Positions 43,601-54,639 of a stretch of DNA of 64,000 bases are shown piece by piece. Where the stretch lies: the NCBI RefSeq assembly GCF_002095395.1, contig NZ_MJEI01000103.1, positions 62,001 to 126,000 on the forward strand. The letters run 5' to 3'. The notes under the pieces were generated by a model. The model made no database searches. It was not told the origin of the DNA and was given only the letters and a program-made list of their open reading frames with translations. The stretch's first letter is position 1. Each line of letters opens with the position of its first letter. The position numbers and the translations under genes are program-made. Source of the DNA: Williamsia sp. 1135. GTDB taxonomy: Bacteria; Actinomycetota; Actinomycetes; Mycobacteriales; Mycobacteriaceae.

Positions 43601-45457
43601 TCACTCCGTAGTGAACAGACGCTGCCAGTTTGCCGGGCTGGTCAGCGTAGGCAGCGCCGCCTGAAAGGCCTTTCGCACGTTTGCGGCGTCCGCCCGGAAG
43701 GCCCATCGCACCTTGAGGTTTCGTGCCCCGAGGGTGCGGGCAAGGCCGGTGTCTCGGGTGCGCAGCCGGACGCCGTTGCCGGATGCGTCCGCCACCACGG
43801 CCTGATCGAACAGGGACACGTGCCACCAGTGGGCATCCGTCGGGGGAATGGCCACACACCCTCGCACCACCCGTCCGGCAAGTTGGGTTGCTGCGCGTTT
43901 GGCGAGCACCACGTCGAAGCGATCCTTGGCAGGTTCGAAGCCGGCGGGATGGACGGGCAACTCACGGTAGTTCACCCCGGGGACGTCGGACTCGCGATGC
44001 ATCACCGTCTCACCGAACGCGGCGCGTTCGCGGCGGATGTCCACCAGCGCCGTCCGGCCACCGTCGGCAAGGATGTCAGGTCCGGTGAGGAAATCCTCGA
44101 TACCCCGAATCATCGTGTACGCCAACCCGTATTGCATCGCCACGATGTGCTGCGAGATCTCACGGAACATGCGTGTACTCAACGACTTGACATCGAGATC
44201 GCTGTGCAGCGCCGCGGTGATCAGCGAGTTCCGGATGCTGAAGTACATCGTCCAGTCGTCGTTGTCTTTACGGGAGAAGTCCATGTGCCACACCGCAGCT
44301 CCCGGCAAGGTGACGGTCTGGACGCCGGCGGTCCCGGCGGCCCGGATGCCGTATTCGATGTCGTCCCACTGGAAGAACATCGGCAGGGGCAGCCCGAGTG
44401 CCGTGATGACCTCCGCCGGCAGCAGGCACGTCCACCACCCGTTGTAGCCCGCGTCGGCAGGCCGGTCCTGGCGCCGGGTCAGCATGTCCGCGTCGTGCAG
44501 CGCGTTTTTCGCCCACCGGCCGGCCCTGAGCGTATGCAGGTCCGCGTACTCCGCGCCGACGTGCAGCCGCGTCGGATTCATCAGGTAGAGCATCTGGGCG
44601 CCCACGATTGTCGGATCGGGGGTGACACTTGCGAAAGCGGCCAGGCGCAACGGGGTCTCGGGTTCGCAGCGGATGTCGTCGTCCATCAGGATGAGATCGA
44701 GATCCTCCTCGTGCGCGACGGCCTCGGATATCCCGCGGGTGAAACCGCCCGCACCACCGAGATTGGGCTGGCGGATGTATGTGAGGCGCTCGCCGAGAGC
44801 GGCGGAAGTCTGATCGAAGCCGGGCTCGTCGCAGACCGCGTCGGTGCCCTGATCGACGACGTACACCGCGGTCAGCCGCTCGCGCGTCAGCTGATCCGAC
44901 GCCAGCGCCGTCAGGGTTGCCACACAGTCGGCGGGCCGGTTGAAGGTACAGATCGCCACCGCCGCGGCCCGGATCCGATGCGGGGCGGTCGTCGACCACA
45001 CCGCGTCACTGATGGTGAGGTCACCGTCGTCGGCGATGAAACCCACCCATAGCGAACCACCGTCGGAGTACCTGTCGAGGGGCACCGTGGAGGTCACCGC
45101 GCCGGCGCCCTCCAACTCCAGTCGCGCCACAACGTGGACCTGTCCGTCGCTGTCGCAGCCGCGCACCACCGCATGGGCCCGGCCTGTGGTCTCGAAGTCG
45201 AAGGTCAGATCGACGCTCGTCACCGTCGTCCACCGCTCGAAGTAGGGAGCGGGCACCCGCCCGAAGTAGGTGTCCGTGTCGATGGTGGCCCCGTGGCGGG
45301 CATGCACCGAGGTCCGGGTGCGATCGCCGCCCCCGGCGATGGTGGCGTAGAGGTCGGCGTCGGTGTCCGGCGTCGGTCCGGCGAAGAGCACACGCTGCAA
45401 CACCAGGGGTGTGTCAGCCGATGCGAGCTGCGCAGCGGTCTCGGCGCGTTCGTTCAT
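43601..45457 (-). CDS. GlfT2-like galactofuranosyltransferase
   Basis: This 618-residue glycosyltransferase aligns by eye with mycobacterial GlfT2 along its length: N-terminal LVLQRVLFAGP, CTFNRPADC at 170-178, QPNLGGAGGFTRG, metal-binding DDD at 259-261, YNGWWTCLLP, QWDDIEYGIRA at 363-372 with the catalytic Asp pair, and AVWHM near 390. GlfT2 polymerises the galactan of the cell wall from UDP-galactofuranose. No glf gene is adjacent, so this may be a paralogue that decorates another glycan. It converges with the methyltransferase gene three bases away. Confidence 0.88.
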   Translation of the reverse strand: MNERAETAAQLASADTPLVLQRVLFAGPTPDTDADLYATIAGGGDRTRTSVHARHGATIDTDTYFGRVPAPYFERWTTVTSVDLTFDFETTGRAHAVVRGCDSDGQVHVVARLELEGAGAVTSTVPLDRYSDGGSLWVGFIADDGDLTISDAVWSTTAPHRIRAAAVAICTFNRPADCVATLTALASDQLTRERLTAVYVVDQGTDAVCDEPGFDQTSAALGERLTYIRQPNLGGAGGFTRGISEAVAHEEDLDLILMDDDIRCEPETPLRLAAFASVTPDPTIVGAQMLYLMNPTRLHVGAEYADLHTLRAGRWAKNALHDADMLTRRQDRPADAGYNGWWTCLLPAEVITALGLPLPMFFQWDDIEYGIRAAGTAGVQTVTLPGAAVWHMDFSRKDNDDWTMYFSIRNSLITAALHSDLDVKSLSTRMFREISQHIVAMQYGLAYTMIRGIEDFLTGPDILADGGRTALVDIRRERAAFGETVMHRESDVPGVNYRELPVHPAGFEPAKDRFDVVLAKRAATQLAGRVVRGCVAIPPTDAHWWHVSLFDQAVVADASGNGVRLRTRDTGLARTLGARNLKVRWAFRADAANVRKAFQAALPTLTSPANWQRLFTTE

Positions 45458-45511
45458 ACCGCCATCCTGCTACAGGTGGACGAGCGCCGACGCCGGGTGG
45501 GTGCGGAGGCG

Positions 45512-47173
45512 TCAGCGCTCGAGCCAGTGCGTCACGCTCAGTGGCCGGGCGGCGGCAACGGCTTCGTGATCGCACGCGAACCCGACCGTCCATCGACCGC
45601 CCTCGAGTTCGACGGCACCGAGGGTCATCGGGGTCGGCAGCGCGGTGAGGAAATCCCCGAGCGCGGCGGGTGACAGTGTCCACAGCTCACCCCGGATCGA
45701 GGTGCCGGCAGCGGTGTCGCGGACCAGCCCCGGTTTCGCGGGTTCGGTGTCGAGTGCGACCAGCCGATAGGCCGCAGCGGTGGCGGCGTCCCCGTCCCAC
45801 CGAGCGCCGCGATCGGTCAGCTGGTGCATCAGCGGTTGTCCCCGCAAGTGCGCGCCGACGACGAACACCTCGGTGGTCGCGGCCCCGGCGAGTTCGGGCC
45901 AGGAGGGTCCTTCGGCAGCCGCCACGGTGCCGATCCGGCCGGCTATGTCGAGCGCGATGGCGTCGTCGTGATCGCGGCAGACCACGGTCACCCCGAATTG
46001 GGCCTGACTGCCGTCGGTGTCGTCGACGATCCCGGCCGGAACAGCCACCGCGCACAGGTCGAAGAGGTTGCAGAAGTTGGTGTACGTCCCCATCGCCGCG
46101 TTGACGCCGATCGGGTCGGCGGCGACCTGATCGAGGGTCGGGTGCATCGGTGCAGTGGGGACGAGCAGGGCGTCGGCGTCACCGAGTGCAGCCAAGGCCC
46201 GGATTCGGAGTTGCTCCACCCGCCGACGGTCGGCGAGCAGTTCGACCGCGCTGAAGCGATCGGCCGCACCGATGATTGCTGCGACCGTCGGGTCGAGTTC
46301 GGTGGATTCGGTTGCACCCGAGATGAACTCGCCGACCGCCTCGTACCGTTCGGCGACGAGTGCGCCCTCGTAGAGCAGCTTGGCCGCGGCCAGGAAGTCC
46401 GAGATGTCGATCCGTTTGATCCGGACGCCTGCGGATTCAGCCTGCTCGATGGCGGCCTCGAACGCGTCCTGCCACCGCTCGTCCAGGGCCGGCAGTTGGG
46501 CGGGGACGGCGACCACCGGACTGTCCGGAGCGGCGAACTTCACCGCGGTACCCCAGTTCTCGGCGCCGGCCATCGATCCCATCGCGCGGTTGGCGAGGTC
46601 GAGATCGCGAGCGAGGACGATGACGCAGTCGTAGCTCGCGCATGCCGGGACCACGCCGGCCGTACTGACCACACCCAGTGTGGGTTTGATGCCGACGATG
46701 CCCTGCAGACCCGCGGGTACCCGCCCGGACCCGGCGGTGTCGGTGCCGATGGCGATGTCGGCGAATCCCAGTGCGACAGCAACCGCAGAACCCGAACTCG
46801 ACCCGCCGGAGATGCGCTCGGGCCGTCGCGAATCACGTACCGCGCCGTAGGGGCTGCGGGTGCCGACGAGGCCGGTCGCGAACTGATCGAGGTTGGTCTT
46901 GCCGATGACCACCGCTCCTGCCGAACGCAGTGCGGCAACTGCTGCTGCGTCTCGCTCCGGCACGTATTCGAAGCCGGGGCACGCAGCCGTCGTGGGCAGC
47001 CCCGCGACGTCGACGTTGTCCTTGACCGCCAGGACGACACCGGCCAGCGCGCCGCCTGCGGCCACCGAGGCCGCGTAGTCCCGCTCGACGTCTGTCCGCC
47101 CGCGCAGGGTGATGAACACCTCGGGTCGATCGGCCGCGTCGATGAGGTCGTAGATGTCAGCGATCCGGCTCAT
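45512..47173 (-). CDS. Allophanate hydrolase (AtzF-like)
   Basis: ATG 47173 overlaps the stop of the carboxyltransferase gene as ATGA. The 553-residue protein is an amidase-signature enzyme with Lys 51 (AVKDNVDV), GGSSSGSA with cis-Ser near 126 and nucleophile Ser 149 (GTDTAGSG). The C-terminal 120 residues (VFVVGAHLRGQPLMHQLTDRG) match the extra domain of AtzF, which decarboxylates the intermediate. It turns allophanate into ammonia and CO2 and is the last gene of the operon. Confidence 0.93.
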   Translation of the reverse strand: MSRIADIYDLIDAADRPEVFITLRGRTDVERDYAASVAAGGALAGVVLAVKDNVDVAGLPTTAACPGFEYVPERDAAAVAALRSAGAVVIGKTNLDQFATGLVGTRSPYGAVRDSRRPERISGGSSSGSAVAVALGFADIAIGTDTAGSGRVPAGLQGIVGIKPTLGVVSTAGVVPACASYDCVIVLARDLDLANRAMGSMAGAENWGTAVKFAAPDSPVVAVPAQLPALDERWQDAFEAAIEQAESAGVRIKRIDISDFLAAAKLLYEGALVAERYEAVGEFISGATESTELDPTVAAIIGAADRFSAVELLADRRRVEQLRIRALAALGDADALLVPTAPMHPTLDQVAADPIGVNAAMGTYTNFCNLFDLCAVAVPAGIVDDTDGSQAQFGVTVVCRDHDDAIALDIAGRIGTVAAAEGPSWPELAGAATTEVFVVGAHLRGQPLMHQLTDRGARWDGDAATAAAYRLVALDTEPAKPGLVRDTAAGTSIRGELWTLSPAALGDFLTALPTPMTLGAVELEGGRWTVGFACDHEAVAAARPLSVTHWLER

Positions 47174-49173
47174 GCCACTTTTCCTGTCTTGGTGGCGAAC
47201 TCGCCACCATCGGACCAACGTTGCCGTTCGATTGCCCTGGCGGCCTCCATCGCGGAGCGATCTGCGGTGATGCCGCCCGCATTGTCGTCGAGGAACCGCT
47301 GGTGTTCGGCGAGCGAGAACGTGCCGTCGCTGATCTCCACTGTGCCACGCCCGGCGGCCATGTCGGCCCGTAGGTCGAGGAGTTCATCGGCGCTGACCGG
47401 GTACCAGCTGATCTTGTCGAAGAAGCGGAGCAGCCAGGGATGCTCGGGTTCGAACCCGGCGGCCCGCAGCGGATGCCGGTGGTTCCAGACCTGGGTGGTG
47501 CGTCCGACGAACTGGTAACCGCCCGGACCCTCCATCCCATAGATGCACATGTACGCGCCTCCGATGCCGACCGCGTTCTCCGGTGTCCAGGTACGGGCGG
47601 GGTTGTATTTCGTGGTGATCAGGCGGTGGCGTGGGTCGAGCGGGACGGCGACGGGCGCACCGAGATACACGTCGCCGAGTCCGAGCACCAGGTATTCGGC
47701 GTCGTAGACGATCCGGTGCACGTCGTCGACCGAGTCGAGGCCGTTCATCCGGCGGATGAACTCGATGTTCCAGGGACACCAGGGGGCATCCGAGCGGACG
47801 CCGAGCATGTATCGCTCGATCGCCTCGCGGGTGGCCGGATCGTCCCAGGACAGCGGTAGATGCACCGTTCGGCTCGGTACGACCAGTTCCGAGGCCGACG
47901 GCAGCTGGGCTTCGCATTCGGTCAGCCACTCGAGCAGCGTCGACTGCCGCATCACTGTGGGGTCGACCTTGATCTGCAGTGACCGGATGCCGGGGGTGAG
48001 GGTGATCAGGCCGGGCGGGCGTTCGGCGTCTATGCGTTCGGCGAGCGCGTGAACCCGGGCGCGAAGCGCGAGATCCAAGCTCATGTCGCCGTACTCGACG
48101 AGGATGTTGTCGTCGCCGCTGCGACGGTAGGTCACCTTGGTGGTGCCGTCGGCCGTCGTCGATCCACCGAGTACCCCGTCGTCGAGGTCGGTGCCGGCGG
48201 AGATGACGGTGCTGAACCCGGCACGCCGGTGCACGCCGAAGCTTGCGACGCTGGCAACCTCGGCCGCGCGGACCGGGACGAACTGCACCGTGTCGCCGGG
48301 CTTGAGCTGCCCGAGTTTCCAACGCTCCGCAGTGGTGACGGTCACCGGGCACACGAACCCTCCGAGACTCGGACCGTCGGGCCCGAGCAGTATGGGAGTG
48401 TCGCCGGTGAAGTCCAGTGCACCAACCGAATACGCGGTGTCGTGGATGTTCGACGGGTGCAGGCCCGCCTCGCCGCCGTCGTTGCGTGCCCATCGCGGTT
48501 GCGGCCCCACGAGTCGAACTCCGGTGCGGTCGGAGTTGAAATGCACCTCGTAGGGGGTGTTGTAGAGATCGTCGATGTCCTCGGGCGTGAAGAACTCGGG
48601 GGCACTGTGCGGGCCGACGGTCACGGCGAGATGCCAATTGTTGGTCAGCGCGGGCTTCTCGTCGCCGAGGATGCGGCGGGCGACCCCGGCGGGGGCAGTC
48701 GGGGTCGTCGCAAGGGTGTCACCGTCGGTCAGGGCGCGGCCGTCTTTGCCTCCGAACTTGCCGAGGGTGAACGTCGATCGGCTCTCGAGATACAACTCGG
48801 CGTCGATGCCCCCTGCGACAGCGACGTAGACGCGCATCCCGACGACGCCGACCGCACCGATGTCGAGGATCTCGCCGGCTTCGAGGGTGATCGGAACCCA
48901 TTGCGGCACAGACCTACCAGAGACTGTCAGTGAGACGGGCGCGCCGGTGACCGCGACAACGGTGTCGGCGTCGAACTGCAGTTGCGGACCCACCAGGGTG
49001 CACTCCAGACCGGGCGCACCTTCGGCGTTGCCGACCGCGATGTTCGCCAACCGGAACGACAGGTCATCCATCGGCCCTGACGGTGGGACACCGACGTGCC
49101 AGTAACGGATACGGCCGGGCCAATCCTGGATGGTGGTCTGCGGGCCTGCCCGCAGGATCGAGATGGTGGACAT
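47170..49173 (-). CDS. Urea/guanidine carboxylase-like carboxyltransferase without biotin domains
   Basis: The 667-residue protein starts with an AHS2/PxpC domain (ILRAGPQTTIQDWPG, PSGPMDDLSFRLANIAVGN), then an AHS1/PxpB domain from about 365 (DDNILVEYGDMSLDLALRAR, ITLTPGIRSLQIKVDP), then the segment FSLAEHQRFLDDNAG of about 60 residues that precedes the biotin carrier in urea carboxylases. It ends there: the family's N-terminal biotin carboxylase and C-terminal biotinyl domain (AMKM) are both missing, and no gene in the window supplies them. It is either one subunit of a split carboxylase or a repurposed enzyme. Confidence 0.88.
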   Translation of the reverse strand: MSTISILRAGPQTTIQDWPGRIRYWHVGVPPSGPMDDLSFRLANIAVGNAEGAPGLECTLVGPQLQFDADTVVAVTGAPVSLTVSGRSVPQWVPITLEAGEILDIGAVGVVGMRVYVAVAGGIDAELYLESRSTFTLGKFGGKDGRALTDGDTLATTPTAPAGVARRILGDEKPALTNNWHLAVTVGPHSAPEFFTPEDIDDLYNTPYEVHFNSDRTGVRLVGPQPRWARNDGGEAGLHPSNIHDTAYSVGALDFTGDTPILLGPDGPSLGGFVCPVTVTTAERWKLGQLKPGDTVQFVPVRAAEVASVASFGVHRRAGFSTVISAGTDLDDGVLGGSTTADGTTKVTYRRSGDDNILVEYGDMSLDLALRARVHALAERIDAERPPGLITLTPGIRSLQIKVDPTVMRQSTLLEWLTECEAQLPSASELVVPSRTVHLPLSWDDPATREAIERYMLGVRSDAPWCPWNIEFIRRMNGLDSVDDVHRIVYDAEYLVLGLGDVYLGAPVAVPLDPRHRLITTKYNPARTWTPENAVGIGGAYMCIYGMEGPGGYQFVGRTTQVWNHRHPLRAAGFEPEHPWLLRFFDKISWYPVSADELLDLRADMAAGRGTVEISDGTFSLAEHQRFLDDNAGGITADRSAMEAARAIERQRWSDGGEFATKTGKVA

Positions 49174-49178
49174 TGTGA

Positions 49179-49847
49179 TCAGACCTCGCTGACGCCGGGC
49201 CGGGTCACGATGACACGTACCGGGGTGGGGTCGAAACCGTTGCAGGGGTTGTTGATCTGCGGGCAGTTGGAGATGAGGACCAGTGTGTCCACCTCAGCTC
49301 GCAGCGCCAGGCGTTTGCCGGGCGCGGACAGTCCGTCGACGATGCCGAGGGAACCGTCAGGGTCGACGGGCACGTTCATGAAGAAGTTGACGTTCCCGAC
49401 CATGTCGGCCTTGCCCAGGCCGTGCGGGGCGCCGCCGATGAGGAAGTTCTCCACACACGCGTGCTGGTGTTTGGTGTGGTGGCCGTATCGCAGCGTGTTC
49501 GACTCCTGTGAGCACGCACCGCCGAGGGTGTCGTGGTTGCCGACTTCGTCGGCCACGATCGTCATCAGCGGGGCCGAATCCTGATCTCGGATCACCGATC
49601 CGGTGGTCAGGAAGATGTTTCCCTGGGCGGCGATGGTCGCCTGTGCGGAATAACGGATGGAGTGATCGCGGCCGCCGAAGAACAGGGTGTCGACGGCCTG
49701 GTTGCCGTACAGATCGACGATCGTGAGGACGTCCCCGGCTTCGACCACACCAGACCATGGCGCGCGGGCGCCGATCTCGTGGTCTCCGATCACCTCACCG
49801 GCAACCAGGGCCAGTTCTGCGGCCGAGGCCGTTGTCGCCGTGCTCAT
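49179..49847 (-). CDS. DUF1989 protein, carboxyguanidine deiminase subunit-like (2)
   Basis: ATG 49847 shares one base with the stop of the preceding gene (TGATG). The 222-residue protein is a urea-carboxylase-associated DUF1989 member, with DLYGNQAVDTLFFGG, ACSQESNTLRYGHHTKHQHACVENFL and NPCNGFDPTPVRV. Two DUF1989 proteins form carboxyguanidine deiminase in guanidine-degrading bacteria. The many His and Cys suggest metal binding. It lies five bases before the carboxyltransferase gene. Confidence 0.9.
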   Translation of the reverse strand: MSTATTASAAELALVAGEVIGDHEIGARAPWSGVVEAGDVLTIVDLYGNQAVDTLFFGGRDHSIRYSAQATIAAQGNIFLTTGSVIRDQDSAPLMTIVADEVGNHDTLGGACSQESNTLRYGHHTKHQHACVENFLIGGAPHGLGKADMVGNVNFFMNVPVDPDGSLGIVDGLSAPGKRLALRAEVDTLVLISNCPQINNPCNGFDPTPVRVIVTRPGVSEV

Positions 49848-50701
49848 CACGCGTTCCTCTCGAAGTGTGCTGCGGCCCAGACATCCTCGGAGTTGAGAGC
49901 CGCACGCTGGTATTCCGGGTCGGTGTCGGGTAGATCGTCGAGCAGGGTCTCGAGATCGCCGGGTGCCCGCCACGCGAGGACCTCCACCGGACCCACATCG
50001 AACCCGGGGGAGGGGTCGAGGGGGTGTGCGGTGTTCACGATCGCGACCGTGCACGGCAGATGGAGAAGCAGGTCCACGTGCTTGTCCAACCCCGCCGATC
50101 CCTTCGAGGTCAGGGATCCGTCGGACTCGACCACGATGCCGTGGAAGAACGACAGGGACGGAGCGACATCGGTGGCGCGCAGGCCGTGTTTCGCGGCGGC
50201 GAGCAGGAACAGCTCCCGGCCGGCAGGTGTCTGCGAGTAGACCTCACCGGCACCATATTTCGCGGTGTTGCCTGCCAGCGTGCTGGTTCCGCAGAGCGCG
50301 TCGTGATGGCCGGAGTCATCGGCGACGATGGTGGCCAGGACCCGACCCTGATCGCTGAGCAGGGGATGGCCGGCGCCGAGGTACGCCTGCCAGGGGACCT
50401 TCACGGTGTCCGCGACGTTGAGCCGTTCCCACGGGGCGTCAGCGCGCCAGAGCAGCACGTTGGCGCACCCGTTCCCGGCGATATCGCGAAGCCGGAGCCT
50501 GGTGCCACGGGCGAGCACTTTGCTGGTGTAACGCCCACCGGGCACCGTCTCGGCCCACGTCATGTCCTGCGCGACAACATCGTCGGGCAGATCCGGCCAG
50601 GCCGACGCCGGTACGACGGGCATCGTGTCGGTGATGGCGGCGGCTTGGGCTCGAGCGTGCTCACGGGCTCCTGCGGTGGTTCCGGTGGACGTCATCGTCA
50701 T
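49847..50701 (-). CDS. DUF1989 protein, carboxyguanidine deiminase subunit-like (1)
   Basis: The 284-residue protein starts at ATG 50701 (or ATG 50695) behind AAAGGA. DUF1989 features are DIAGNGCANVLLWRADAPWERL, GHHDALCGTSTLAGNTAKYG, and SFFHGIVVESDGSLTSKG. It is the larger partner of the DUF1989 pair and is coupled to the smaller by a one-base stop-start overlap. Together they would remove ammonia from carboxyguanidine to give allophanate if the operon degrades guanidine. Confidence 0.9.
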   Translation of the reverse strand: MTMTSTGTTAGAREHARAQAAAITDTMPVVPASAWPDLPDDVVAQDMTWAETVPGGRYTSKVLARGTRLRLRDIAGNGCANVLLWRADAPWERLNVADTVKVPWQAYLGAGHPLLSDQGRVLATIVADDSGHHDALCGTSTLAGNTAKYGAGEVYSQTPAGRELFLLAAAKHGLRATDVAPSLSFFHGIVVESDGSLTSKGSAGLDKHVDLLLHLPCTVAIVNTAHPLDPSPGFDVGPVEVLAWRAPGDLETLLDDLPDTDPEYQRAALNSEDVWAAAHFERNA

Positions 50702-50733
50702 GGCCGGGTTGTCCTTTCGAAATCGGGGAGTGA

Positions 50734-52302
50734 CTATTTGTCGGCTGCTGCCGGCGTGAACACCTTCACGGGCATCGGGTGCTTCTTGCCGTGGGGGAAG
50801 CAGGCGATGCCGATGAGGATCGACGCCACGATGCAGATCGGGCCTGCCCACTTGAGGATGGGCATCTCGCCGGCGGGGTCGAAGATCTCCGCGCGTGGCC
50901 AGGCCAGGTTGACCACCATCAGCAGTCCGTATACAACCGCCAGGATGTTGAGCGGAATCCCGAAGCGGCCCAACGTGAACAGCTTCTTTCCTTCGGCGTC
51001 GACAGCGCTGGTGGTGTTGCCAGGCCAGCCCTTGAGCCGGCGCCAGAGCATCGGGCCGGTGACCGAGAGATACGCGAGGTAGATCAGGATGATGCAGACG
51101 CTGGCGAGGGTCGCGAAGATCGCCGAGTTGCCGATGTTGACGACGAGGACGCCGATGCACAGGACACCGATCAGCACCGACGGTGCGATGGGGGTTCCGG
51201 TCCGCGCGTTCACGTGGCTCAGGAGTTTCGACGCGGGCAGCCGGTTGTCGCGGGCCATCGAGAACATCAATCGTGAGCACGCGGTCTGTATTGCCAAGGT
51301 GCAGATGAAGATCGCCACTACGACGTCACAGAGCAGGACCTTGCCCCAGAAGGATCCGAGCACGGAGTCGAGGACGTACGGAAGTCCGCCGACGGCCAGT
51401 TCTTCACCGAGACTCGGTGCGGCCATGAGTGCGCCGAGCAGCATCAAACCGCCGCCGATTGCCGATGCGGTCAGGGCCAGGCGGATGGTGCGCGGTGCGA
51501 CGCGGCGAGGGTTCTTTGTCTCCTCGGCGAGTTCGCCGGCGGAGCCGAAGCCGACCATCACGTATGCGGCCATCAGACCGGAGACGATGAAAGCCCAGAT
51601 GTAGCCGGGTTGTTGGCCGGGAAGTCCGGTGTCGAAGACGACGTCGGGACCGCGCTCGGCGTGGGTGAACAGCGCCAGGATGACCGCGGTCACGCCGACG
51701 ATCTCGCAGGTGACGCCGATGTTGTTGATCCGGCTCATCCAGTTGACGCCGATGCAGTTGATGAAGGTCGTGATGACCAGCAGGATTGACCCGAGGAGGA
51801 CCGCGTTGGCGGCGCCGCTGGTGCTGGTCAGTGCAGCGTCGTCGCCGATGATCTGGAATCCGTCCCAGATCGAGGGCATGACCACCTGGAGTGCGATGGC
51901 CGCCGCGGATGCGGTGACGATCTGGGCGAGCATCATGAACCAGCCACCGAACCAGCCGATGACCTCACCGCCCATGCGCCGCGACCACTGGTAGATCGCA
52001 CCGGAGATCGGATAGCGTGCTGCGATCTCGGCGAAGCAGAGGGCGACCAGGAACTGGCCGACATAGACGATCGGCCAGGTCCAGAAGAACGCCGGACCGC
52101 CGAACGAAAAGCCGAGACCGAACAGCTGGAAGATCGTGGTCAGGATGGAGACGAACGAGAAACCCGCCGCAAACGACGCGAAGGTTCCCAGCGAGCGATG
52201 GAGCTGCTGGGTGTAGCCGAACTCGGAGAGGTCGTCGGCGTCCGGCGTTGGTCCGGCACCGCCGCTCACTGGTGCGGTGGGGGGTTGCGCGGTTGCGGTC
52301 AT
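50734..52302 (-). CDS. APC-family permease for guanidine/urea-type substrate
   Basis: ATG 52302 follows AGGAAGA; an ATG at 52329 lies in the leader. The 522-residue protein has about twelve hydrophobic segments and APC-family features: FGYTQQLHRSLGTFASFAAGFSFVS at the first helix, GLMAAYVMVGFGSAGELAEETKNPRR near the middle and SRLMFSMARDNRLPASKLL. It resembles GabP/choline-type permeases of the APC superfamily. As first gene of the operon it should import the compound the enzymes act on. Confidence 0.9.
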   Translation of the reverse strand: MTATAQPPTAPVSGGAGPTPDADDLSEFGYTQQLHRSLGTFASFAAGFSFVSILTTIFQLFGLGFSFGGPAFFWTWPIVYVGQFLVALCFAEIAARYPISGAIYQWSRRMGGEVIGWFGGWFMMLAQIVTASAAAIALQVVMPSIWDGFQIIGDDAALTSTSGAANAVLLGSILLVITTFINCIGVNWMSRINNIGVTCEIVGVTAVILALFTHAERGPDVVFDTGLPGQQPGYIWAFIVSGLMAAYVMVGFGSAGELAEETKNPRRVAPRTIRLALTASAIGGGLMLLGALMAAPSLGEELAVGGLPYVLDSVLGSFWGKVLLCDVVVAIFICTLAIQTACSRLMFSMARDNRLPASKLLSHVNARTGTPIAPSVLIGVLCIGVLVVNIGNSAIFATLASVCIILIYLAYLSVTGPMLWRRLKGWPGNTTSAVDAEGKKLFTLGRFGIPLNILAVVYGLLMVVNLAWPRAEIFDPAGEMPILKWAGPICIVASILIGIACFPHGKKHPMPVKVFTPAAADK

Positions 52303-52338
52303 GGGAGATCTTCCTGCTAAGGGGCCCATGAGCCCTGG

Positions 52339-52387
52339 TATCTGTCAGGTGATAGATAACCGCGTAGCTATTTCTGTCGAGTGACAG
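52339..52387. promoter_or_regulatory. Two operator-like palindromes in the permease/TetR divergent region
   Basis: TATCTGTCAGGTGATAGATA (52339-52358) is a near-perfect palindrome with core CTGTC-AGGT-GATAG (52342-52355). A second site, CTGTC-GAGT-GACAG, is at 52374-52387, with the same arms and spacing. Starts are 32 bases apart, about three helical turns. They are likely the binding sites of the TetR protein encoded at 52515. Confidence 0.72.
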
Positions 52388-52514
52388 GTTTGTTTCCGGC
52401 TCGCAAACGCGTGAAACAAGTGTGTTTCCGAGAACGCACTCAGTGCAGGTCAGGGGCTCGCTGACCGGCGCGGACGCCATCAATGGTGCGTCGATGACAG
52501 TAAGGTCAGTATTT

Positions 52515-53129
52515 GTGACTCATGTTGCGGCAGGCCCAGGACGCCCTCGATTGGTGGAGCAACGACGTCGTGGTGCCACTGCTCGCGAGGAGATCAGGGA
52601 CGCCGCTGCGGAGCTGTTCACCACGCGTGGCTACGCGGGTACGTCCACCAGGATGATCGCCGAGGCCGTGGGGATCCGGCAGGCGTCGCTCTATCACCAC
52701 TTCAAGACGAAAGACGACATCCTCGAGTCCCTGCTCAAGGACACCGTCGTGGTGCCGCTCGAGAAGGCGCGCGAGGTTGCGGCAGCCGACGGTCCGACGC
52801 TGGCCCGGCTCCAGGAGCTGGCGGGTTTCGACGCCGGGCAGCTCGCAGCGTCGCGCTGGAATCTCGGCGCGCTCTATCTACTTCCCGAACTGCGCACGCA
52901 GCGATTCGCCGAGTTCCGACAGGCGCGCACCGACCTGGCGCGCGTCTATGCGCAACTGGCCGGTGAGGTCCTCGGTGATCAGTCCGACCCGCGTAGGCAC
53001 GTTCCGTTCCGGCTCGTGGAATCGGTCATCAGCATGCGCTCCGACGAGATGGTGGGCGCGCTCGGCGCCGATTCCGTCGACGACCTGGTCGGGGTACTCG
53101 TCGAGAGCATCGCGCTCGTCCTCACCTAG
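52515..53129 (+). CDS. TetR-family regulator of the carboxylation operon
   Basis: GTG 52515 has AAGG nine bases upstream; ATG 52494 is an alternative. The product of about 204 residues has a basic N-terminus, a TetR helix-turn-helix (EEIRDAAAELFTTRGYAGTSTRMIAEAVGIRQASLYHHFKTKDDIL) and a helical ligand domain. It is divergent from the permease operon and flanks its two palindromes, so it is probably the operon repressor. No guanidine riboswitch-like leader was seen in the gap. Confidence 0.87.
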   Translation: MTHVAAGPGRPRLVEQRRRGATAREEIRDAAAELFTTRGYAGTSTRMIAEAVGIRQASLYHHFKTKDDILESLLKDTVVVPLEKAREVAAADGPTLARLQELAGFDAGQLAASRWNLGALYLLPELRTQRFAEFRQARTDLARVYAQLAGEVLGDQSDPRRHVPFRLVESVISMRSDEMVGALGADSVDDLVGVLVESIALVLT

Positions 53130-53135
53130 AGATGA

Positions 53136-53204
53136 CAAACCCACCCGTTCCGGTCAGACCCACGGGTCTGCGACCCCTGGATGTGACCGGAACGGGTGGG
53201 TTTG
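53136..53204. terminator. Strong bidirectional terminator with nested hairpin
   Basis: Perfect 21-base arms occupy 53136-53156 and 53184-53204 (outer CAAACCCACCCG with CGGGTGGGTTTG). The 27-base loop contains a small GACCC-AC-GGGTC palindrome. The element fills the gap between convergent genes ending at 53129 and 53220. The two arms show no mismatch. Confidence 0.9.
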
Positions 53205-53219
53205 CGTACGAAAGGTAGG

Positions 53220-53879
53220 TCAGGCCTTCCACTCCGCGGTGCGTTCCGGGGTGGCCTCGGCCAGCGCCTCTGTGAGCTTGGCCGCAGTGAAATCTTTGCC
53301 GTACGAGGGAGTTCCGGGCTGCTGGCGCCACGACTCGGCGATGGTGCCGGCATCGACGGGGTCGAAACCGAGTTCGTCGACGATGGCCGAGACGATCTTC
53401 TTGCCGTCCTCGTCGTCGCCGGCGACGGGCAGCGCGATTCGGCCCTCGGTCCCGGCCTCGGTGCCCTTCTCCAGCAGGTGCTTCCAGTAGATCCCGTTGA
53501 AGACCTTGTAGACGGGAGCGTCGAGAAGTTCTGAAACCCAGGCGCTTTCGGGTGTTCCGTCCTCGATGGCGGCAATCTTGCCGTCGCGCTGCTGCGGGTA
53601 GTAATTGTTGGTCTCGATCACCGGTGCACCGGGCTTGCGCGCCGAGAGGATCCCCTTGGCCAGGTCCGGGGTGTTCTTCTGCGGAATGCTGACGATGACC
53701 AGGTCGGCATCGTCCGCGGCGTCTTTCGCCCAGACGGCCTGCGCGCCGGTCTCGGTGGCCAGCTCTGCGAGCGTCTGGGGATCGCGCGAATTGGACACCC
53801 GCACTTCATGCCCCAATTGTGTCAGTCGACGCGTCAGCGTTCCGCCGATGAATCCTGCGCCGATGATTCCGATCTTCAC
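53220..53879 (-). CDS. NADPH-F420 reductase-like NAD(P)-binding protein
   Basis: The 219-residue protein begins MKIGIIGAGFIGGTL, a Rossmann motif, and has VSNSRDP, which favours NADP, and VIETNNYYPQQRDG, typical of the F420H2:NADP oxidoreductase-like family. These soluble enzymes move hydride between F420 and NADP; many homologues are merely predicted oxidoreductases. It is alone on its strand, 88 bases from the two-component regulator gene. Confidence 0.87.
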   Translation of the reverse strand: MKIGIIGAGFIGGTLTRRLTQLGHEVRVSNSRDPQTLAELATETGAQAVWAKDAADDADLVIVSIPQKNTPDLAKGILSARKPGAPVIETNNYYPQQRDGKIAAIEDGTPESAWVSELLDAPVYKVFNGIYWKHLLEKGTEAGTEGRIALPVAGDDEDGKKIVSAIVDELGFDPVDAGTIAESWRQQPGTPSYGKDFTAAKLTEALAEATPERTAEWKA

Positions 53880-53967
53880 TCTGGTGACCCCTTACGTCGT
53901 GGAAAACACACTCCTCCGGCCAACTCGTGCGGTCGGGAGTTCATTCCCCGGCCTCTGATGATCGAGG

Positions 53968-54639
53968 TCAGGGCACCTCTCCGGGCCGGGCGTCGTGGAC
54001 CAGCAGAGCGATCTGGACCCGGTTGTTGAACCCGAGCTTGTCGAGGATGTGGGAGATGTGGCTCTTGACCGTTGCCACCGAGACGAACAGATCCTCGGCG
54101 ATGGCGGAGTTGGAGTTGCCCTGGGCGACGGCGACCGCCACGCGCTGCTCGCCCGGGGTGAGCTGATCGAACTGGGTGTCTGCCTTCGACTTTCGTTCAC
54201 CGGGTTCGGTGAAGCGGACGATGAGTTTGCGCGTGATGGCCGGAGACAGAATCGGTTCGCCCGCCACCACCTTGCGCAACGCCGCGATCAGGTCGGCAGG
54301 CGGGGTGTCCTTGAGCAGGAAGCCGCTGGCCCCGGCCTGCAGCGAACGCAACACCAGATCGTCTGTGTCGAAGGTGGTGAGCATGACCACATGCGGGGGA
54401 TCGGGCAGGGCGCGGAGCGCCTCGGTGGCCACAAGGCCGTTGACCTTCGGCATCCTGATGTCCATGAGGACCAGGTTGGCCCCGGTCTCGGCGACCTTCT
54501 CGCGCACCGCCGAGCCGTCGGACGCCTCACCCACGATGTCGATGTCGGGCTGGCCGGTCAGCATCGTGCGCAGGCCCGCGCGCACCAGCCACTCGTCGTC
54601 GACCAACAGCAGTCGGATCTCTGTGGTCACCTCGGACAT
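53968..54639 (-). CDS. NarL/LuxR-family response regulator
   Basis: The 223-residue protein has a receiver domain with acidic pair DDE near 14, phosphorylated Asp 60 (LVLMDIRMP), the Thr of MLTTFD and the Lys of LLKDTPP. A LuxR-type helix-turn-helix (LTPGEQRVAVAVAQGNSNSAIAEDLFVSVATVKSHISHIL) follows at about 155-215. It overlaps the sensor kinase gene by 13 bases and is its partner. Confidence 0.95.
   Translation of the reverse strand: MSEVTTEIRLLLVDDEWLVRAGLRTMLTGQPDIDIVGEASDGSAVREKVAETGANLVLMDIRMPKVNGLVATEALRALPDPPHVVMLTTFDTDDLVLRSLQAGASGFLLKDTPPADLIAALRKVVAGEPILSPAITRKLIVRFTEPGERKSKADTQFDQLTPGEQRVAVAVAQGNSNSAIAEDLFVSVATVKSHISHILDKLGFNNRVQIALLVHDARPGEVP

Follow-up and report, generated by a model that had tools for sequence, protein, structure and literature searches.

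A carboxyltransferase-only putative guanidine carboxylase in Williamsia and its relatives, probably supplied with carboxybiotin by an acyl-CoA carboxylase subunit

Biotin-dependent carboxylases usually keep their biotin carboxylase (BC), biotin carboxyl carrier protein (BCCP) and carboxyltransferase (CT) parts fused in one chain or encoded together. Here we examine an operon of Williamsia sp. 1135, located at positions 45,512-53,129 of a 64,000-nucleotide stretch of contig NZ_MJEI01000103.1 (hereafter 'the window'), whose urea-carboxylase-type enzyme consists of a CT of 667 residues with neither of the other two parts. The closest described systems are the guanidine carboxylases (Gca), which passages in one study recognize by aspartate residues at the positions equivalent to 1330 and 1584 of the Kluyveromyces lactis enzyme, where position 1330 is the one that separates them from urea carboxylases (PMC11410670). 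Excerpts from a second source assign Asp at the diagnostic position to guanidine and Asn to urea (PMC12186494).

Operons resembling that of Williamsia have been encountered before through their regulation. According to passages in one account (PMC4222082), the genes msmeg_2184-2189 of Mycobacterium smegmatis are induced by nitrogen starvation (48-, 13-, 32-, 3- and 4-fold for 2184, 2185, 2186, 2187 and 2189, respectively), GlnR and AmtR both bind upstream of msmeg_2184, and the enzyme functions of the cluster are termed 'highly speculative'. Parts of two further papers call msmeg_2187 a urea amidolyase (PMC3662644, PMC4617892). The operon is in this sense already known as a GlnR/AmtR-regulated 'urea amidolyase', and its missing domains are not noted in print in the passages covered by our searches. 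Likewise, a literature search over titles and the beginnings of abstracts returned no description of a CT-only urea or guanidine carboxylase, which does not show that none has been published.

We conclude that the Williamsia gene represents a conserved CT-only enzyme of the guanidine carboxylase type that is real rather than an artefact. In the mechanism that we propose, the carboxylase would be reduced to its carboxyltransferase, carboxybiotin would be supplied in trans by a BC-BCCP protein that also serves other carboxylases, and the supplier would be the alpha subunit of an acyl-CoA carboxylase, with AccA3 as the likeliest candidate. Both delivery in trans and the identity of the partner are matters that we infer, and we assign this overall reading a probability of roughly 0.68.

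Architecture and active site of the carboxyltransferase

The CT gene (positions 47,170-49,173, minus strand) encodes an AHS2 (CT_A_B) domain at residues 27-300, followed by an AHS1 (CT_C_D) domain at residues 348-566 and a folded C-terminal element at residues 587-655, with Pfam scores of 305 bits for PF02626 and 138.3 bits for PF02682. Its score against the urea carboxylase model TIGR02712 is 974.3 bits, which falls under the cut-off of 1303.85 since the match spans just model positions 447-1115 out of 1201; a full-length relative (locus L104 of the survey described below) reaches 1758.6 bits. Foldseek searches with a model of the CT returned 5i8i and 3va7 as the top matches. The protein also falls short of the models for the 5-oxoprolinase subunits PxpC (127.1 bits versus a cut-off of 500) and PxpB (35.6 versus 145.55), and there is no PxpA-like protein among the six proteins of the operon.

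Family scans and tblastn searches revealed neither the N-terminal BC domain of guanidine carboxylase in the CT gene and its flanks nor a C-terminal biotinyl (BCCP) domain in the CT, and tblastn with urea-type BC and BCCP queries found nothing hidden near the operon. Indeed, the preceding UAAP2 gene stops 5 bases before the CT start and the CT overlaps the next gene, and therefore there is no room for the lost domains. An initial annotation made from the sequence of the window had described a CT of 667 residues without BC and BCCP, which the TIGR02712 coverage and the flank searches bear out. It had also allowed for a BC/BCCP gene near the operon; the flanks contain none, and the genome yielded no urea-type BC. 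That the 'linker' before the biotinyl domain has been kept, as it further remarked, is not odd because the AlphaFold model shows this segment as part of the folded C-terminal element, with strands and helices within residues 587-655 (block mean predicted local distance difference test score, pLDDT, of 64-91). This model, in which the mean pLDDT is 73.1 and residues 230-248, 255-273, 499-507 and 521-580 are below 50, was relied on for the overall fold and the C-terminal element alone.

Residues of the active site are well preserved. In an alignment to 5i8i, Asp254 and Asp501 of the CT correspond to K. lactis positions 1330 and 1584. Among the loci surveyed, Asp occupies position 254 in each of the 107 truncated CTs and in all 28 full-length CTs that are accompanied by DUF1989 proteins, whereas the 10 full-length CTs without such neighbors all have Asn; position 501 is Asp in 145 of 145. 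These counts leave out L159 and L160, which carry Met at position 254, and the 107 truncated sequences include 9 repeat fetches. The diagnostic Asp points to guanidine as the probable substrate, and so, of the 'guanidine or urea' of the initial annotation, guanidine is favored and urea is not. Furthermore, 194 columns are invariant in the 38 full-length CTs, and 177 of these persist in 97% or more of the 107 truncated CTs. The other 17 are relaxed (for example, Pro126 is replaced by Glu, Asp or Gln in most truncated CTs), and not one of the 194 has switched to another residue in more than 80% of the truncated proteins. Judged by these residues, catalysis by the CT looks intact.

Distribution and descent of the truncated form

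Within the genus, the CT is found in 9 of 9 genomes (counting that of the window) in open frames of 668-907 amino acids, and the nearest named loci, from Williamsia limnetica, W. sp. 1138 and W. soli, share 97-98% identity. It was detected in 141 of 201 genomes of a family-wide draw (E-value up to 1e-60, with up to five candidates scored per genome) and in 47 of 394 genomes of a class-wide draw (E up to 1e-100, up to three candidates), such that absences in either draw are not firm. When 147 CT loci were typed by tblastn, 109 lacked both BC and BCCP, 38 carried both, and none carried only one. Repeat fetches of a contig account for nine of the 109, which leaves 100 distinct contigs, and locus L160 ends inside the CT, so that the presence of BCCP there cannot be judged. 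Eight loci from the genus search had flanks of 1.5 kb only (six of these were also taken with longer flanks), and the flanks of the rest were mostly 4-8 kb. Motif matches in L026, L032, L085, L091 and L099 were considered as biotinyl sites and rejected, being not biotinyl-looking by eye. A split or misassembled gene is rejected on the basis of the 9 genus genomes and the 109 loci, which also answers the concern, raised with the initial annotation, that a sequencing error might have divided a full-length carboxylase.

The truncated enzymes keep consistent company. Two separate DUF1989 regions reside beside the CT in all 109 truncated loci and in 28 of the 38 full-length loci; the other 10 have none. 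Where truncated loci extend to at least 17 kb (n=61), an allophanate hydrolase is within reach in 52, a permease in 59 and a TetR match in 54. The nine long loci with no allophanate hydrolase match near the CT (L067, L071, L074, L075, L077-L080 and L092) all derive from Rhodococcus, Rhodococcoides or Prescottella. For Rhodococcus jostii RHA1, a passage in an earlier study lists the amidase under a distant locus tag (PMC4222082).

A tree of 74 representatives, built by a quick method with Shimodaira-Hasegawa-like approximate likelihood ratio test (SH-aLRT) support only, unites 45 truncated rows in one clade (SH-aLRT 99) that is nested in the full-length, DUF1989-associated carboxylases. By this tree, the truncated clade is derived from full-length ancestors, and its nitrogen-scavenging enzymes, which belong to mycobacteria-related actinobacteria of soil, seem to have shed two of their three parts in one event. 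Six genomes (G057, G113, G145, G070, G142 and G085) each carry both a truncated CT with DUF1989 genes and a full-length carboxylase without them.

Two truncated rows, L159 (G280:C100:32000-42500) and L160 (G358:C163), fall outside the main clade on long branches. Both come from other families; in each, a BC-less CT lies next to two DUF1989 genes, and the substrate may differ because position 254 is Met. They possibly represent another, independent loss, and a single clade for all truncated rows is not rejected (approximately unbiased test, p-AU 0.231). In L159, 9 of 23 changed columns fall in the relaxed set (p 1.3e-5), but in a leave-one-out control with full-length proteins 15 of 35 such changes did so as well, and in L161 5 of 8 (p 4e-4). 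As a result, the column sharing of L159 is not used as evidence of a second loss.

Candidate donors of carboxybiotin

The genome that includes the window (G000; 107 contigs, completeness 100) has a single match to the urea-carboxylase-type CT at E up to 0.001. It encodes five BC domains, of which two reside in proteins passing the pyruvate carboxylase cut-offs and three in acyl-CoA carboxylase alpha-type proteins. The alpha-type labels AccA1 and AccA2 used below are our own, after the mycobacterial nomenclature, and the label AccA3 is taken from the name in the Protein Data Bank (PDB). The two pyruvate carboxylases, L010 (G000:C35) and L011 (G000:C28), are full-length proteins of 1127 amino acids each with BC regions that are 77% identical. 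None of the five BC proteins passes the urea carboxylase cut-off, and the tested candidates do not track the CT, so the search for a stand-alone urea-type BC or carrier of the same phylogenetic spread, which the initial annotation had suggested, yielded no such gene in this genome. Ten matches to biotinyl/lipoyl domains were obtained, and nine of these exceed the cut-off: one in each of the five BC proteins, one in a stand-alone carrier of 72 residues, and three in two other proteins that are presumably lipoyl E2 types. The small carrier, which we label TB7.3-like in line with a passage in PMC3048393, is encoded at L164:4116-4331 (G000:C48:223115-223330), on a different contig from the CT. By eye, its gene adjoins apparent sigma-factor and histidine-kinase genes, and within the 201-genome family draw none of the genomes of genus g30 yielded a match to the protein.

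Among the candidate types, AccA3 comes nearest to being universal. With six candidates scored per genome, an AccA3-type protein is present in 195 of 201 family genomes and an AccA2-type protein in 165; by hand count, the AccA3 type occurs in 32 of the 33 genomes with a typed truncated CT. Several other types were considered as obligate partners and rejected: G025 gave no pyruvate carboxylase, and all three of its BC genes are typed (AccA3, AccA1-type and AccA2-type; its CT is locus L044); the AccA2 type was not found in G073, where 6 of 29 candidates were scored and absence is not proven; and the TB7.3-like carrier was not found in G015, G044 or G187, all of which have truncated CTs.

Stronger, if indirect, evidence comes from a solved structure. 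PDB entry 9yx5, titled 'long chain acyl-CoA carboxylase complex from Mycobacterium smegmatis with MSMEG_0435-MSMEG_0436 bound', includes the AccA3 sequence and matches the CT through chain V by sequence (E 4.6e-19) and through chain W by Foldseek (rank 21, E 0.019). The bound proteins, named as allophanate hydrolase subunits in this AccA3-containing entry, were solved earlier as 3mml, with 29-30% identity to the CT in the Foldseek table. By analogy, an AHS-type carboxyltransferase that docks on the AccA3 complex would be just what a borrowing model needs. In addition, AccA3 is described in part of one report as common to several CT subunits (PMC11001197), and pxpB, pxpC and pxpA share one operon with accB and accC in Staphylococcus aureus, according to a passage in another (PMC11315280). 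The initial annotation had offered a borrowed acyl-CoA carboxylase alpha chain as one of two readings, and this is the better supported of them given the conserved CT active site, the several BC-BCCP proteins in the genome and the 9yx5 complex, even though the borrowing itself remains something that we infer. Its description as 'new biochemistry' is too strong for such an arrangement, since the sharing of AccA3 among carboxyltransferases is already reported in the text seen of PMC11001197.

Loss of the BC and BCCP domains might also have left a trace in the CT itself. After pruning at 80% identity to 23 truncated (without L159 and L160) and 15 full-length sequences (without L161), the truncated clade shows lower conservation at CT residues 122-161 than do full-length relatives with a similar spread. 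A value as low came up in none of 2000 column permutations, in none of 300 random halves drawn from the truncated set and in 2 of 300 drawn from the full-length set. This segment is the lowest in both parts of the truncated clade, and in the opposite direction conservation rises by at most 0.11, at position 313. The drop might be a faint sign of contacts released when the neighboring domains disappeared.

A number of observations weigh against the proposed role of AccA3 and should be set beside this evidence. The conservation test is confounded, and thus weak, because a comparison between the two parts of the truncated clade shows a difference almost as large at another place (-0.156 at position 338 versus -0.168 at position 122). 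Column 345, outside the invariant set, is Pro in 97% of full-length and Thr in 92% of truncated CTs. The pair in 9yx5 is distant from the CT, as its sequence identity and Foldseek E-value indicate, and MSMEG_0435-0436 may be bound to the AccA3 complex for another reason. Co-occurrence with AccA3 is weak evidence because nearly every genome of the family has this subunit. In the single-contig genome G015 (G015:C1, 3.16 Mb, 99% complete), which has a truncated CT, all 15 candidates were scored and none proved to be of the AccA3 type; the BC proteins found there comprise one pyruvate carboxylase and one AccA2-type protein. AccA3 matches were likewise absent from G144 (6 of 41 candidates scored) and G200 (6 of 23), where the CT matches are of 68-69% identity and untyped architecture. 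No single BC type turned up across G015, G025 and G073, the last of which has AccA3, an AccA1 type and others, with two of its five BC genes untyped and 6 of 29 candidates scored. Finally, the word 'urea' is absent from the main text of a pull-down study with mycobacterial Acc baits (PMC4347857). The exceptions to AccA3 may be gaps of assembly or of search.

Among the alternatives, the one that survives best, unlikely as it is, would be a CT that needs no biotin, with guanidine activated or carboxylated in another way (e.g. by ATP, as passages in PMC13274462 assume for the phosphorylation of 5-oxoproline by the AHS1/AHS2 pair PxpB/PxpC) or with a substrate that is already carboxylated. The lack of a biotin carrier with the operon and of any BC or BCCP type common to all truncated-CT genomes tested speaks for this idea, which would represent a new reaction type for the CT of urea and guanidine carboxylases and would explain why no universal biotin partner emerges. 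However, the CT keeps 177 of the 194 urea carboxylase columns, scores 974.3 bits against the urea carboxylase model versus 127.1 against PxpC, lacks a PxpA-like neighbor, and descends from full-length biotin-type carboxylases, and the AHS pair in 9yx5 is itself bound to an AccA3 complex. For the reading of the initial annotation in which the substrate is already carboxylated and no biotin is required, we found no positive evidence.

It is rather improbable that there is no single donor at all and that the CT accepts carboxybiotin from whichever BC-BCCP protein is present, be it AccA1, AccA2, AccA3 or pyruvate carboxylase. Such promiscuity would fit the failure to find one BC type in G015, G025 and G073 alike, but it depends on one genome without AccA3 (G015) and on the partial typing of BC genes in G073. 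Harder still to credit is the 72-residue TB7.3-like protein as the carrier, charged by the BC of an acyl-CoA carboxylase. It is encoded in the genome of the window and has a match in 162 of 201 family genomes, yet its gene lies apart from the CT, and its presence in 30 of 33 typed genomes (hand count), with G015, G044 and G187 as those without a match, does not make it look obligate. Lastly, that two of three functional parts are missing might signify a decaying or misassembled carboxylase without function, which is most improbable given that the same architecture recurs with strong conservation in 100 distinct contigs and that the M. smegmatis operon is induced under nitrogen starvation, as stated in the part of PMC4222082 cited above.

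The operon and its described counterparts

The neighboring genes were called from an open reading frame listing together with family scans. Three genes precede the CT on the minus strand. The first encodes a permease of 531 residues (positions 50,734-52,329) of the APC superfamily, of the type found in urea/guanidine carboxylase systems (TIGR03428, 861.8 bits versus a cut-off of 740.45). Next are the two DUF1989 (PF09347) proteins UAAP1 (284 residues, positions 49,847-50,701; TIGR03425, 283.5 bits versus 205.95) and UAAP2 (222 residues, positions 49,179-49,847; TIGR03424, 319.4 bits versus 284.7), which are predicted to be the two subunits of a putative carboxyguanidine deiminase. Downstream of the CT, also on the minus strand, is an AtzF-type allophanate hydrolase of 553 residues (positions 45,512-47,173) with Amidase and AH_C domains (TIGR02713, 608.5 bits versus 511.05) and 4gyr as its nearest solved chain. 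Stop and start overlap at the UAAP1/UAAP2 and CT/allophanate hydrolase junctions, and four of the five minus-strand proteins pass their NCBIfam cut-offs, with the CT as the exception.

Divergent from these genes, on the plus strand at positions 52,422-53,129, is an AmtR-type TetR regulator, whose best solved chain is 5e57 ('Transcription regulator AmtR', 192.7 bits); position 52,422 is a putative start, and the comparison with 5e57 used a query beginning at 52,500. Open reading frames and family scans thus confirm the operon content listed in the initial annotation: an APC permease, two DUF1989 proteins, an AHS2-AHS1 protein, an AtzF-like hydrolase and a divergent TetR gene. A weak Rfam match to mir-1420 (28.8 bits versus a gathering threshold of 70) lies at positions 53,138-53,202, between the AmtR-type gene and its convergent neighbor, and is perhaps a terminator hairpin.

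If AccA3 is indeed the donor, then one subunit of lipid synthesis would serve both fatty acid synthesis and nitrogen assimilation, creating a direct physical link between the two. The GlnR/AmtR-controlled 'urea amidolyase' would be reannotated as a guanidine enzyme, and the binding of AHS-type proteins to the AccA3 complex in 9yx5 would have a possible explanation.

Compared with known systems, the Williamsia operon is most like the Gca pathway (TIGR02712), with which it shares the AHS2-AHS1 CT, Asp at both K. lactis positions, UAAP1/UAAP2 and allophanate hydrolase neighbors, and an APC permease. It differs in that the CT lacks BC and BCCP and is under the TIGR02712 cut-off, and in that no guanidine riboswitch match was obtained within positions 44,000-54,500 at E up to 1. 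The msmeg_2184-2189 cluster, as matched by description rather than by sequence from the passages cited, is alike in its permease, two reading frames of unknown function, carboxylase, amidase and control by GlnR and AmtR; those accounts (PMC4222082, PMC3662644, PMC4617892) center on regulation, and the passages concerned mention neither missing domains nor guanidine. PxpB/PxpC (MSMEG_0435-0436, YbgJK) also exhibit a stand-alone AHS-type fold without BC or BCCP, but they are two chains of about 30% identity to the CT and, in the portion seen of PMC13274462, have PxpA as partner and 5-oxoproline as substrate. The AccD carboxyltransferases of acyl-CoA carboxylases belong to another CT family and act on acyl-CoA. 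Nonetheless, the mycobacterial acyl-CoA carboxylases that share AccA3, as portrayed in parts of PMC11001197 and PMC4347857, combine separate CTs with one BC-BCCP alpha subunit, and this is the working mode that we propose for the putative guanidine carboxylase of Williamsia.

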